Positions 28,875 to 50,068 of a stretch of DNA of 57,749 bases are shown here, piece by piece. A program made the translations under genes and the position numbers. Source of the stretch: Cyanobacteria bacterium REEB459. GTDB lineage: Bacteria > Cyanobacteriota > Cyanobacteriia > Phormidesmidales > Phormidesmidaceae. The notes beneath the pieces were generated by a model, which was given only the letters and a program-made list of their open reading frames with translations, was not told the origin of the DNA and searched no databases. Location: contig JAGWXD010000018.1 in assembly GCA_018970085.1 (NCBI GenBank), positions 1-57,749 of the forward strand. The letters are read 5' to 3'. The stretch's first letter is position 1. Every line of letters starts with the position of its first letter.

Positions 28875-29432
28875 TTAAATATGTTTTAATTTTTTATACA
28901 TTAGTAGCCGTTCAGGTCTTCCCTGGCCCCAGGGAAAGGCGGTTGATGTCATGGCGATTATCTTAAATCCCAATCCCTGGTAAAGACGCAAGGCCCCCCG
29001 GTTATCGGCCATGACATGGAGATAGAGGTCGTAGATTTGCCAATCTAGGGAAATCGCCTCGCAGGCTTTAAGTAAATGACTGGCAATGCCCCGGCGTCGA
29101 CAAAACCTGCCTACGGCTAAATTGGCTACATAGGCATAGGTTTTAGGAAATACTTGCCAGGGCCAGCTGAGGCGTCGGGAGATTTCTACGCTGCCGGCTA
29201 GTTCACCGCTCCAGGGGGGGCTGCTAAGGATGGCAGTCAGGCATCGGCAGGTCTGGCTTTGGTACTGAAGTCGTTGCCTTAAGTCAGTCTGGATGCCAAA
29301 TGTGAGCAATGGATAGAAAAATCCTGGCCAATCCTCAGGGTCATAAAAACTATCGGCCAGCAACCTTGCCAGACAGGGTAAGTCTTCTAGGCGGGCTGAT
29401 CGAATCCGGGGGGGAGATGCACCAGGTACCAT
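28875..29432 (-). CDS. GNAT family N-acetyltransferase
   Basis: A 185-aa acetyl-CoA-dependent acyltransferase. The N-terminus RIRSARLEDLPCLARLLADS is strand 1/helix 1 of the GNAT fold. Motif A is VANLAVGRFCRRRGIASHLL (the acetyl-CoA pyrophosphate loop R-R-R-G-I-A). Motif B follows in NRGALRLYQGLGFKIIA. It resembles the cyanobacterial/plastid group of GNATs; the substrate (protein N-termini, Lys or small amines) is unknown. The ATG at 29432 is chosen because AAAGG lies about 10 nt upstream; a TTG at 29462 would extend it by ten residues. Confidence 0.88.
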   Translation of the reverse strand: MVPGASPPRIRSARLEDLPCLARLLADSFYDPEDWPGFFYPLLTFGIQTDLRQRLQYQSQTCRCLTAILSSPPWSGELAGSVEISRRLSWPWQVFPKTYAYVANLAVGRFCRRRGIASHLLKACEAISLDWQIYDLYLHVMADNRGALRLYQGLGFKIIAMTSTAFPWGQGRPERLLMYKKLKHI

Positions 29433-29516
29433 TCCTTCGCTACCTTTATAGTTAGATGTCAATGGCGAAGCCTAGAAAATCCATAGTTTATTACCTATGT
29501 TTAACTTTAATATTCC

Positions 29517-30383
29517 ATGACTGCTCCAGCCTTTATCACCAGAATTGAATCCCACCGTGACCCTGGTTACCTCTGGCCCTTGGCTGGTCTGGGAGCTATC
29601 CTTGTCCATGGCGGGCTATGGCTGGTGTGCCGGTCCTTGGTCATCACTAGCCAGGCGGCGGCTCCCCCCCAGTCCGCCTCCATACCCGTACAACTCTGGC
29701 TGGATGCTCCGGCAGAGCAGTCTCCCCAGGTCGCTAACACCGAGGCCCGGCCTGGAGCTTTACCCGCCGTATCAGACCAGACCAGTAGCTCCAAGGGGTC
29801 ACCATTGCCCGATGCTGTTGCCGTCCACCCCGATGCCTCCCAGGCTAAGCCGGTTTTACCCTTAGCAGATAGCCCCCTGAGCCCCAGTTCTGCCCCTTTG
29901 CCCAACCCCTTGCCCCGCCCCCAGCCAGAGATCGCCGCCTCATCTTTGCCCCCAGCCTCGCCAGTCCCCAGCCCAGATCTAGCCAAGCCAACCCCCAGTC
30001 CCCCGGTTAGCCCCGCTGCCAATGGCCAACTGTTAGCCGTTGGCTTAATGGCTAGCAGCTTTGGCACTGACTTTCCTGACCGGCCCCCCCAATTATTAGA
30101 TCGCCAGCCTCTGGTCATGCAGCCCTGGTTGTCGGTGTGCGGGCTAAAAAACCTAGGGGCGATCGCCAGCCCGGGGCTGGTGGCTAAGGTCAACCTGCAG
30201 GTGCAGGTACAGCCCGACGGCAAGGTCTCCCGGGCTACAGTAGTAGACGGTACTGGCGATACTGCTCTAGATCAGCTGGTCAGTTGTATGGTTGAGCAAC
30301 AGGTCCGACTCCAGCCCGCCACTACCGCCGGCACTCCTCAACTGACGGATGCCTATATTTTGCAAACCCAGCTACGGTTTTAA
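29517..30383 (+). CDS. TonB-like membrane-anchored periplasmic protein
   Basis: A 288-aa protein with the three-part layout of TonB-type energy transducers. It has a membrane anchor at residues about 20-42 (LAGLGAILVHGGLWLVCRSL), a long Pro/Ser/Ala-rich spacer (about 45-175, for example PLPNPLPRPQPEIAASSLPP), and a small C-terminal domain (VAKVNLQVQVQPDGKVSRAT, then LVSCMVEQQVRLQPATTAGT). The C-terminal strand-helix pattern with PDGKV resembles TonB C-terminal domains. No exbB or exbD is nearby, so it must borrow energising partners, or it is a stress-structural relative. ATG at 29517. Confidence 0.75.
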   Translation: MTAPAFITRIESHRDPGYLWPLAGLGAILVHGGLWLVCRSLVITSQAAAPPQSASIPVQLWLDAPAEQSPQVANTEARPGALPAVSDQTSSSKGSPLPDAVAVHPDASQAKPVLPLADSPLSPSSAPLPNPLPRPQPEIAASSLPPASPVPSPDLAKPTPSPPVSPAANGQLLAVGLMASSFGTDFPDRPPQLLDRQPLVMQPWLSVCGLKNLGAIASPGLVAKVNLQVQVQPDGKVSRATVVDGTGDTALDQLVSCMVEQQVRLQPATTAGTPQLTDAYILQTQLRF

Positions 30384-47964: not shown

Positions 47965-48537
47965 TTAGCGATCGCAGCGACGCATTAAATAGGCCACGGC
48001 AAAGTCGGCGTAGTCATGGTGTTTGAGGAGATCACTGAGTTCCTCTAGGCGCTGGGTAATGTCGGGACCCAACCGGTCCTCTAGAGCTTGACGCTCCCGT
48101 TCGGCGGCCTCCAGGTGACGTATCTGGGCTTGCCACTCGGTAGAAAATACGTAGTCTAAATGGGCTTGCAGGCCCAACTCCTGACATAGATCCCATTCGC
48201 CTCCGTCACACCAGATACCCTGACAACTGGGGCAGCGCTCCAGATAAATCGTTCCTTGCCGCAAATTAAGTCGGCCCCGTACCAGGTAGCTATGACAATC
48301 AGGGCACAGGGCAGCCCGACTATCTAGCGGCGAGGGCTGAAAAGTCGTCTTTAGGGTCAGGGGCAGCAGGGCAACGGTGGGTGGATCATCCCCATTACCC
48401 TGCTGGCGTTGCCAGGGCAGATAGGACTGGGCAGGAATCCAGAGGCCACCGCAACTATGGCAGGACTTCGCCTCCAATCCGGGGGCGAGATGACAATCGT
48501 GAAGGTGAATTCCACCTTCTTTAGGACACTGATACAA
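47965..48537 (-). CDS. Protein with two zf-TFIIB-like zinc ribbons
   Basis: A 190-aa protein with two zinc-ribbon modules: CPKEGGIHLHDCHL...SCHSCGGLWIP (residues about 4-33) and CPDCHSYLVRGR...ERCPSCQGIWCDGGEWDLC (about 78-115). The CxxCxGxWx-type pairs fit the zf-TFIIB domain. A C-terminal helix (LEAAERERQALEDRLGPDIT) follows. Likely a nucleic-acid or protein-binding adaptor; specificity unknown. The start appears to be TTG at 48537. It lies just upstream of the ABC ATPase gene on the same strand, 21 bp apart from its ATG. Confidence 0.85.
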   Translation of the reverse strand: MYQCPKEGGIHLHDCHLAPGLEAKSCHSCGGLWIPAQSYLPWQRQQGNGDDPPTVALLPLTLKTTFQPSPLDSRAALCPDCHSYLVRGRLNLRQGTIYLERCPSCQGIWCDGGEWDLCQELGLQAHLDYVFSTEWQAQIRHLEAAERERQALEDRLGPDITQRLEELSDLLKHHDYADFAVAYLMRRCDR

Positions 48538-48652
48538 GGACTATTGTTCCAACTAGGGGGCCAGGGAATCCCCTACTATTAAACACCAGAACGCCTCAGC
48601 AAGGGTCACAAAAGCTCCCAGGCACAGCCTTAAGCTGGGAATCGCGAGCCGG

Positions 48653-48979
48653 CTATGACCAAGGCGATTGGCGCTGCAAATAGTCTAACCAGGTAGCCAG
48701 TTGAGCTAAACGGTCACCAATCTGAGCCTGACGATGCTGAATGGTCTGGGGCTGGCGACTGGCCCGCAAAAAAGCTATGTCCACCGCGATCAGCCGCAGC
48801 ACCCGACTGATTTCAGTTAAAGCTGGCTGTATAGCGGTCTGGTCACCTGCGGCTAGGGCCTGAAATCCCTGCTGCAACTGCCAGAGCCTGTCCTCAAACA
48901 GGCGCCTATCAGGATGGACCAGATGGACTAGGGAGCCTAATTCGGTTAACTGCGATCGCAATTGCGCCAGAGCATCCAT
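48653..48979 (-). CDS. PatD-like protein (heterocyst frequency control family)
   Basis: A 108-aa helical protein resembling PatD: FEDRLWQLQQGFQALAAGDQ, then ALTEISRVLRLIAVDIAFLR, then ASRQPQTIQHRQAQIGDRLA. The sequence VLRLIAVDIAFLRASRQPQT closely matches the LRLLGxDVxFLQxARQPxT region I recall from PatD proteins. In Anabaena PatD affects how often cells become heterocysts. In a non-heterocystous strain the role would be different. ATG at 48979. It is divergent from a LysR gene, with two palindromes in the shared interval. Confidence 0.6.
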   Translation of the reverse strand: MDALAQLRSQLTELGSLVHLVHPDRRLFEDRLWQLQQGFQALAAGDQTAIQPALTEISRVLRLIAVDIAFLRASRQPQTIQHRQAQIGDRLAQLATWLDYLQRQSPWS

Positions 48980-49056
48980 CGTCTTATATCCTTAGTCTTC
49001 GGTCACGGAAAAACAGTTTGCCATAAATCATAGAAAACATGCAAATGTGGTGGATA

Positions 49057-49091
49057 ATTTGATAGAATCAAATCTATACAAAAATGTATAG
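49057..49091. promoter_or_regulatory. Two abutting perfect palindromes, candidate LysR operators
   Basis: ATTTGAT-AGA-ATCAAAT (49057-49073) is followed directly by CTATACA-AAAA-TGTATAG (49074-49091). The first contains TTGATAGAATCAA, a T-N11-A core typical of LysR-type regulator sites. They lie 20 bp from the LysR start (TTG 49112) and 77 bp from the PatD-like start, so one bound regulator could control both. The second palindrome overlaps a possible -10 region. Confidence 0.65.
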
Positions 49092-49111
49092 CCCTCCTGG
49101 GAGGTAGAAGG

Positions 49112-50068
49112 TTGATTCACGCCACACTTCACCAACTTAAAGTGTTTGAAGCTACCGCTCGCCATGGCAGCTTTACCCGTGCAGCTGAGGAGCTCTACCT
49201 GACTCAGCCTACCGTCTCCATTCAGGTTAAACAACTGACTAAGGCCGTTGGCCTGCCCCTGTTTGAGCAAATTGGTAAACGGCTCTACCTAACCCAGGCT
49301 GGACAAAAACTGTTGGACACCTGTCAGGAAATTTTTGGTGGACTCGACCAGTTTGAGATGGCTATCTCCGATCTAAAGGGTCTAAAACAGGGTCAGCTTC
49401 GCCTAGCGGTCATTACCACCGCCAAGTATTTTGTGCCCCGTTTACTGGGCCCCTTTTGCCAGCGCTTTCCAGGGATTGATATTTCCCTCAAGGTGACCAA
49501 TCACCAGCACATTCAAGAGCGCATGGCCAATAACGATGATGACCTCTACATTATCAGTTCACCCCCAGAACAGCCAGATTTGAAGATTTATCCCTTTTTA
49601 GAAAATCCCCTGGTGGTAATCGCCCCCCAAGACCATCCCCTGGCAGGCAAAACCAGCCTGCCCGTCAGCTGTTTGAACGGGCAGCAGTTTATTATGCGGG
49701 AACCCGGATCCGGTACTCGCCAGGCGGTGCAAAAGCTATTTATGGACCATAACATCGATGTCAAGGTGCGCCTGGAACTCGGCAGTAATGAGGCGATTAA
49801 ACAGGCGATCGCTGGAGGACTGGGAATTTCAGTACTCTCCATGCATACGATTATCTCTGAGGGGACCCGCGGTGAGTTTGCCGTTCTTGATGTGGAGCAT
49901 TTTCCCATTGAACGGCACTGGTATGTAGCCAGTCTGGCGGGTAAGCAATTGTCGGTGGTTTCCCAGGCCTTTTTATCCTATCTGCTGGAAGAAAGCCACG
50001 CCATGGTTGAAAAATGTTTACCTGGTATTAACCACGCCTCAGCTTCTAAGGTAGAAATGGCATCCTAA
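49112..50068 (+). CDS. LysR-type regulator, CmpR/NdhR (CcmR)/CbbR-like
   Basis: A 318-aa LysR regulator. HTH at residues 1-65: ATLHQLKVFEATARHGSFTR, AAEELYLTQPTVSIQVKQLT. The effector domain from about 90 contains LRLAVITTAKYFVPRLLGPF and MREPGSGTRQAVQKLFMDHN. This N-terminus is the CmpR/NdhR type, unlike the RbcR type (LDQLRILKAIAAEGSF). Relatives sense the photorespiratory or carbon state and control CO2-uptake genes or rbc. The start is TTG at 49112 with GGGAGG 7 nt upstream; no ATG is available. Twin palindromes directly upstream suggest autoregulation. Neither cmp, ndh nor rbc genes are nearby. Confidence 0.92.
   Translation: MIHATLHQLKVFEATARHGSFTRAAEELYLTQPTVSIQVKQLTKAVGLPLFEQIGKRLYLTQAGQKLLDTCQEIFGGLDQFEMAISDLKGLKQGQLRLAVITTAKYFVPRLLGPFCQRFPGIDISLKVTNHQHIQERMANNDDDLYIISSPPEQPDLKIYPFLENPLVVIAPQDHPLAGKTSLPVSCLNGQQFIMREPGSGTRQAVQKLFMDHNIDVKVRLELGSNEAIKQAIAGGLGISVLSMHTIISEGTRGEFAVLDVEHFPIERHWYVASLAGKQLSVVSQAFLSYLLEESHAMVEKCLPGINHASASKVEMAS

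Follow-up and report, generated by a model that had tools for sequence, protein, structure and literature searches.

The closest described counterparts of the element analysed here are the binding sites of cyanobacterial LysR-type regulators of carbon genes. The consensus of NdhR (CcmR), a repressor of CO2-concentrating genes, is ATAG-N8-CTAT (Klaehn et al. 2015, cited in parts of PMC13249358), and footprinted operators of ccmR and ndhF3 in Synechocystis are told in parts of PMC3401165. Further passages of PMC13249358 describe NdhR as a dimer of dimers, list 11 of its residues as contacting 2-oxoglutarate or 2-phosphoglycolate and report these two compounds as its effectors. The same passages give TTA-N7/8-TAA as the site of CmpR and ATTA(G/A)-N5-(C/T)TAAT as that of RbcR; RuBP is the effector reported for both. 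CmpR and RbcR resemble NdhR in being LysR-type and in regulating carbon genes, and RbcR also in acting on its own gene. In the window, by which we mean the whole 57,749-nucleotide stretch of DNA that was analysed, the exact NdhR consensus of Synechocystis sp. PCC 6803 stands before a gene of the ndhR type, and elsewhere in the same genome it stands before an ndhF3-family gene.

The regulator gene and a patD-family gene are divergent and are separated by an interval of 132 bp (48980-49111). The best PDB match of the LysR protein is chain 5y2v (483 bits, query residues 3-294), and its regulatory domain alone scores 322 bits against 5y2w, compared with 260 bits against CmpR (5z49). Both 5y2v and 5y2w carry the depositors' label 'Rubisco operon transcriptional regulator', and we take them to be NdhR (CcmR), with 5y2v being that of Synechocystis. 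The account of an NdhR crystal structure in parts of PMC13249358 is in line with this assignment. Of the 11 effector-contact residues, ten could be placed (Lys10 could not) and all ten are identical to those of Synechocystis NdhR. On these comparisons the gene is an orthologue of NdhR/CcmR, closer to NdhR than to CmpR among the solved structures, so that the carbon-sensing type of regulator supposed in the first-pass annotation was borne out. Its proposed ligands fared unevenly: the effectors reported for NdhR include 2-oxoglutarate and 2-phosphoglycolate, whereas RuBP belongs to CmpR and RbcR (parts of PMC13249358).

Table 1. Features of the ndhR-patD region, in window coordinates.
Feature	Position	Strand	Remarks
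patD family gene	48653..48979	-	NF037954, 60 bits (cut-off 50); divergent from ndhR
Half-site ATAGA	49030..49034	+	exactly 32 bp from the operator, start to start (about three helical turns)
Palindrome 1, ATTTGAT-AGA-ATCAAAT	49057..49073		includes ATAG, the operator's left half
Predicted NdhR operator, ATAG-AATCAAAT-CTAT	49062..49077	+	exact consensus match; straddles the palindrome junction
Palindrome 2, CTATACA-AAAA-TGTATAG	49074..49091		supplies CTAT, the operator's right half
ndhR (ccmR), LysR-type repressor	49112..50068	+	TTG start; GGAGG at 49100-49104

A single exact copy of ATAG-N8-CTAT lies in the interval, 34 bp before the ndhR start codon. Its conservation was examined at 110 loci of ndhR orthologues, comprising 30 from the genome set and the best 80 of 549 from named contigs; after the exclusion of one locus devoid of upstream DNA (L061) and of 13 duplicates, 96 distinct upstream regions were compared. 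Of these 96 regions, which include the best 80 of the 549 contig loci, 58 have the exact consensus and 83 have it with at most one mismatch. In the same set, again with the best 80 of 549, the reversed motif used as a control gave no exact match and six matches with at most one mismatch, and eight other spacer lengths (4-7 and 9-12) gave between zero and two exact matches each. Within the genus group the agreement is complete (25/25 distinct regions exact). This group consists of 22 same-genus genomes, the present one included, and three named loci (L036, L045, and L095) that were added because their NdhR identity is at least 86%. Two results count against the reading as an operator: in the 96 regions, with the best 80 of 549 among them, the exact consensus is missing within 200 bp in 38 and is missing even with one mismatch allowed in 13. 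A promoter scan, in which one weak site was found against 0.6 expected, also counts against it.

The other carbon and nitrogen regulators can be considered at this point. On both strands of the interval, ATAG-N8-CTAT is matched once, whereas no match was found to the CmpR motif, to the RbcR motif, or to GTA-N8-TAC, which we take to be the NtcA box. That the site belongs to CmpR, RbcR, or NtcA is therefore highly improbable, although the first two, like NdhR, are of the LysR type and act on carbon genes (parts of PMC13249358) and patD is NtcA-regulated in Anabaena according to the title of a reference within PMC12288457. The element is very probably the autoregulatory operator of NdhR, for which the identity of the gene, the exact consensus, its conservation, a fixed partner at 32 bp, and related sequence before carbon-uptake genes provide the basis. 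As judged from its sequence, the site is real, conserved, and of an already known kind, and the autoregulation suggested in the first-pass annotation is retained in the form of a predicted NdhR-type site before the regulator's own gene.

This operator does not coincide with the two palindromes by which the locus had first been noticed. The palindromes are perfect and abut end to end within the divergent interval, exactly as had been claimed. When inverted repeats were defined by perfect 7-bp arms and a loop of 3-8, at least two of them arose in 0.7% of 5000 dinucleotide shuffles of the 132-bp interval, and two separated by at most 3 bp arose in none of the 5000. The whole window contains 58 perfect repeats with 7-bp arms (41 distinct centres) and one abutting pair, that at 49057-49091; ten shuffles of the whole window gave 14-30 repeats each and three abutting pairs in all, or approximately 0.3 per 58-kb window. 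The abutting pair is thus rare for so short an interval and less striking over the window as a whole. The perfection of both palindromes and the rarity of such close pairs among the shuffles would fit two separate palindromic sites, each bound alone by the LysR protein or by another regulator. However, palindrome 1 is exact in three of the 25 distinct genus-group regions and palindrome 2 in one, which is the window itself, compared to 25 of 25 for the repeat that straddles them; moreover, the right arm TGTATAG has, by eye, no counterpart in four aligned relatives. Among the three relatives that keep the same ndhR-patD arrangement (G002, G015, and G021), palindrome 1 recurs in one and palindrome 2 in none, whereas ATAG-N8-CTAT is exact in all three. 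Two separate sites are accordingly very improbable. Palindrome 1 supplies the left half and the spacer of the predicted operator and palindrome 2 the right half, and the two palindromes appear, from these comparisons, to be mostly accidental extensions of these halves. They are real but, on the same comparisons, not a conserved unit, and the site had been misdelimited in the first-pass annotation.

A role of the palindromes in RNA can be weighed on the same material. Both hairpins appear in the predicted fold of the strand, at −11.9 kcal/mol, as would be expected if they formed an element in the ndhR leader. This fold, however, has a z-score of only −1.48 and is equalled by 18 of 200 shuffles; no Rfam match up to an E-value of 1 was found in 48600-49400 and no terminator-like site in 48900-49200, and the poor conservation of the palindromes (3/25 and 1/25 genus-group regions) applies here as well. 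An RNA element is scarcely to be credited.

The second conserved part of the NdhR operator is the half-site ATAGA. It lies exactly 32 bp upstream of the operator in 45 of the 58 regions with an exact consensus, the next commonest spacings occurring twice (both counts from the set that includes the best 80 of 549). The 32-bp spacing is also kept in loci of other families (L023, L024, and L027 among others), although the related genomes are not independent of each other. A search of 38 genomes with the two-part pattern, i.e., the operator together with the half-site at 32 bp, gave 51 matches in 29 genomes, compared to one for the reversed control. All 51 matches were assigned by reference to 34 ndhR genes, 25 of 50 rows with PF05982, and four ndhF genes from genomes that still had an unexplained site. 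The PF05982 rows used are of the type scoring about 200-312 bits, which we take to be SbtA; 20 rows of a higher-scoring type and five fragments were left out. The matches represent 49 distinct sites, 45 of them at most 600 bp upstream of an ndhR, sbtA-type, or ndhF gene. Twenty-five are before ndhR, one in each of 25 genomes out of the 34 that have a close orthologue, and two are before ndhF. The other 18 are before genes of the sbtA type and come from 17 genomes out of the 24 that have this type, a proportion reckoned among the counts against the reading. Four sites fall elsewhere (G006:C31, G025:C313, G029:C53, and G034:C1). Genome G006, of the same genus, is without a close ndhR orthologue (best E-value 1.5e-40), yet carries its two-part site near a contig end. 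In G024 and G025, further exact consensus sites occur near sbtA-type genes (L220:3187, L221:345, and L221:3334-3381) and may be clustered operators.

No prior description of the 32-bp half-site was found in a literature search that included parts of PMC13249358, PMC3401165, PMC4390856, PMC7699953, and PMC12288457. Relative to the Synechocystis operator as described in the literature searched, the new elements are thus the exact place of the operator in this genome and the constant half-site, which is conserved at both ndhR and sbtA-type genes. The present genome also differs from Synechocystis sp. PCC 6803 in having no Pfam PF05982 (SbtA) match; such a match is found in 20 of the 22 other same-genus genomes. 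At 3.24 Mb (the window is its contig C92), the genome is set against 3.4-7.3 Mb for these 22.

The ndhF3-family gene of the present genome (TIGR01960, 867 bits), which carries ATAG-N8-CTAT upstream, is followed on the same strand by ndhD and chpXY genes, with a small opposite-strand ORF between these two. In a survey of 21 of the 23 genus genomes, the consensus is exact upstream of ndhF paralogue B in 20 of the 21, the present one included, and the reversed control is found in none; the sole miss is a contig end of 192 bp. The 32-bp half-site is present in none of the 20 regions with the repeat, which indicates that the regulon as a whole does not share the two-part form. In 14 of the 20 paralogue B regions (L284-L302), a further repeat with a single mismatch lies 21-28 bp upstream, at 21 bp in ten of them; it is lacking in the present genome. 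When instead the best-scoring ndhF3-family copy of 30 genomes was taken, which in the genus is mostly the other copy, the repeat was found in two of the 30, as would be expected only if that copy is no NdhR target. One ndhF3-family upstream region (L271) has no site within its 236 bp.

Counts over whole genomes tell against the operator reading. ATAG-N8-CTAT alone is not enriched in the present genome (25 sites versus 31 for the reversed control). The longer motif TGATAGA-N6-TCTAT gave 28 matches versus 12 for its control in 20 genomes, and one versus one in the present genome, which also counts against. What carries the argument for an operator is its position, its conservation, and the two-part context. 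Besides the site in the window, five of the 25 consensus sites of the genome were inspected (L184-L188): L186 is the one before ndhF3, and the other four were judged by ORF only. The window holds a second exact copy at 29483-29498, between ORFs at 28875-29462 (minus strand) and 29517-30383 (plus strand); going by the genome-wide count, this copy is probably due to chance.

Regulation as described for Synechocystis NdhR, including that of its own gene (parts of PMC3401165 and PMC13249358), is likely by analogy to apply here. Given the dimer-of-dimers architecture reported for NdhR (parts of PMC13249358), the natural reading of the two-part site is one dimer on each part: one dimer of the tetramer would sit on ATAG-N8-CTAT and the other on ATAGA. 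The bound protein would cover the ndhR promoter and, with 2-oxoglutarate bound, would keep the gene repressed under ample inorganic carbon; 2-phosphoglycolate, which is made at low carbon, would loosen NdhR from the operator. The fixed partner at 32 bp would then offer a simple model, possibly valid for many cyanobacteria, of the placement of the NdhR tetramer on DNA. The locus also illustrates how the halves of an operator can by chance be extended into perfect palindromes, a conserved element here taking the place of two eye-catching ones.

A separate question is whether the site also, or mainly, controls patD, such that NdhR would repress patD and tie cell division or cell fate to carbon status. 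The region predicted to be bound lies 51-98 bp before the patD start codon, and the operator is present in all four genomes with the divergent ndhR-patD pair. Nevertheless, of the 33 genomes among 38 in which patD-family genes were found at an E-value of 0.001 (32 of them above the cut-off), only four have ndhR adjoining patD (G000, which is the present one, G002, G015, and G021), several of the genomes being drafts of many contigs. Of the 33 patD loci, 30 were examined, and at 26 of these ndhR is not the neighbour; the exact consensus is absent from the 330 bp upstream of all 26 (for one of them 62 bp were available), and two have a site with one mismatch, 323 and 219 bp away. Conversely, the operator is retained at locus L095, whose NdhR shows 92% identity, and no patD was found in the 1.6 kb upstream of it; the nearest long upstream ORF there looks like a short-chain dehydrogenase. 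By eye, conservation among the four ndhR-patD genomes does not extend to the patD side of the interval, and the blocks that stand out in these four intervals and in L095 are the half-site, the operator, and the ndhR ribosome-binding region. Because these are the conserved blocks and because L095 keeps the operator in the absence of patD, the operator would appear to serve ndhR. Control of patD is thus unlikely, and its membership in the regulon, as suggested in the first-pass annotation, gains no support from the compared genomes beyond adjacency, although from nearness alone an effect on patD is possible in the four genomes; the link would matter only if measured. In the literature search, one paper was listed that mentions ndhR and patD together with cyanobacteria, a review on the metabolism of polyamines and ethanolamine.

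A wider scheme can be outlined, which we regard as doubtful. NdhR operators might exist in two builds, one at ndhR and sbtA-type genes with the full repeat and the 32-bp half-site, and with one dimer on each, and the other at ndhF3 lacking the half-site and often having a second near-repeat 21-28 bp upstream. The two builds would give different strengths of repression, and the first would also have captured patD in the few genomes with the divergent pair, so that a negative effector of FtsZ would be coupled to carbon status.

The surroundings of patD show a conservation of their own. A zinc-ribbon (TFIIB-type) gene, at 47965-48537 in the window, is found near patD in 16 of 21 genus loci and in five of nine others when flanks of 1.5 kb are considered, and is a more constant neighbour of patD than ndhR. 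An OppD/F-like ABC ATPase is near patD in 14 of the 21 genus loci within the same flanks. The PatD protein of the present genome is itself diverged, with 37-51% identity to those of 20 congeneric PatD loci, compared with 87-92% for NdhR within the genus.
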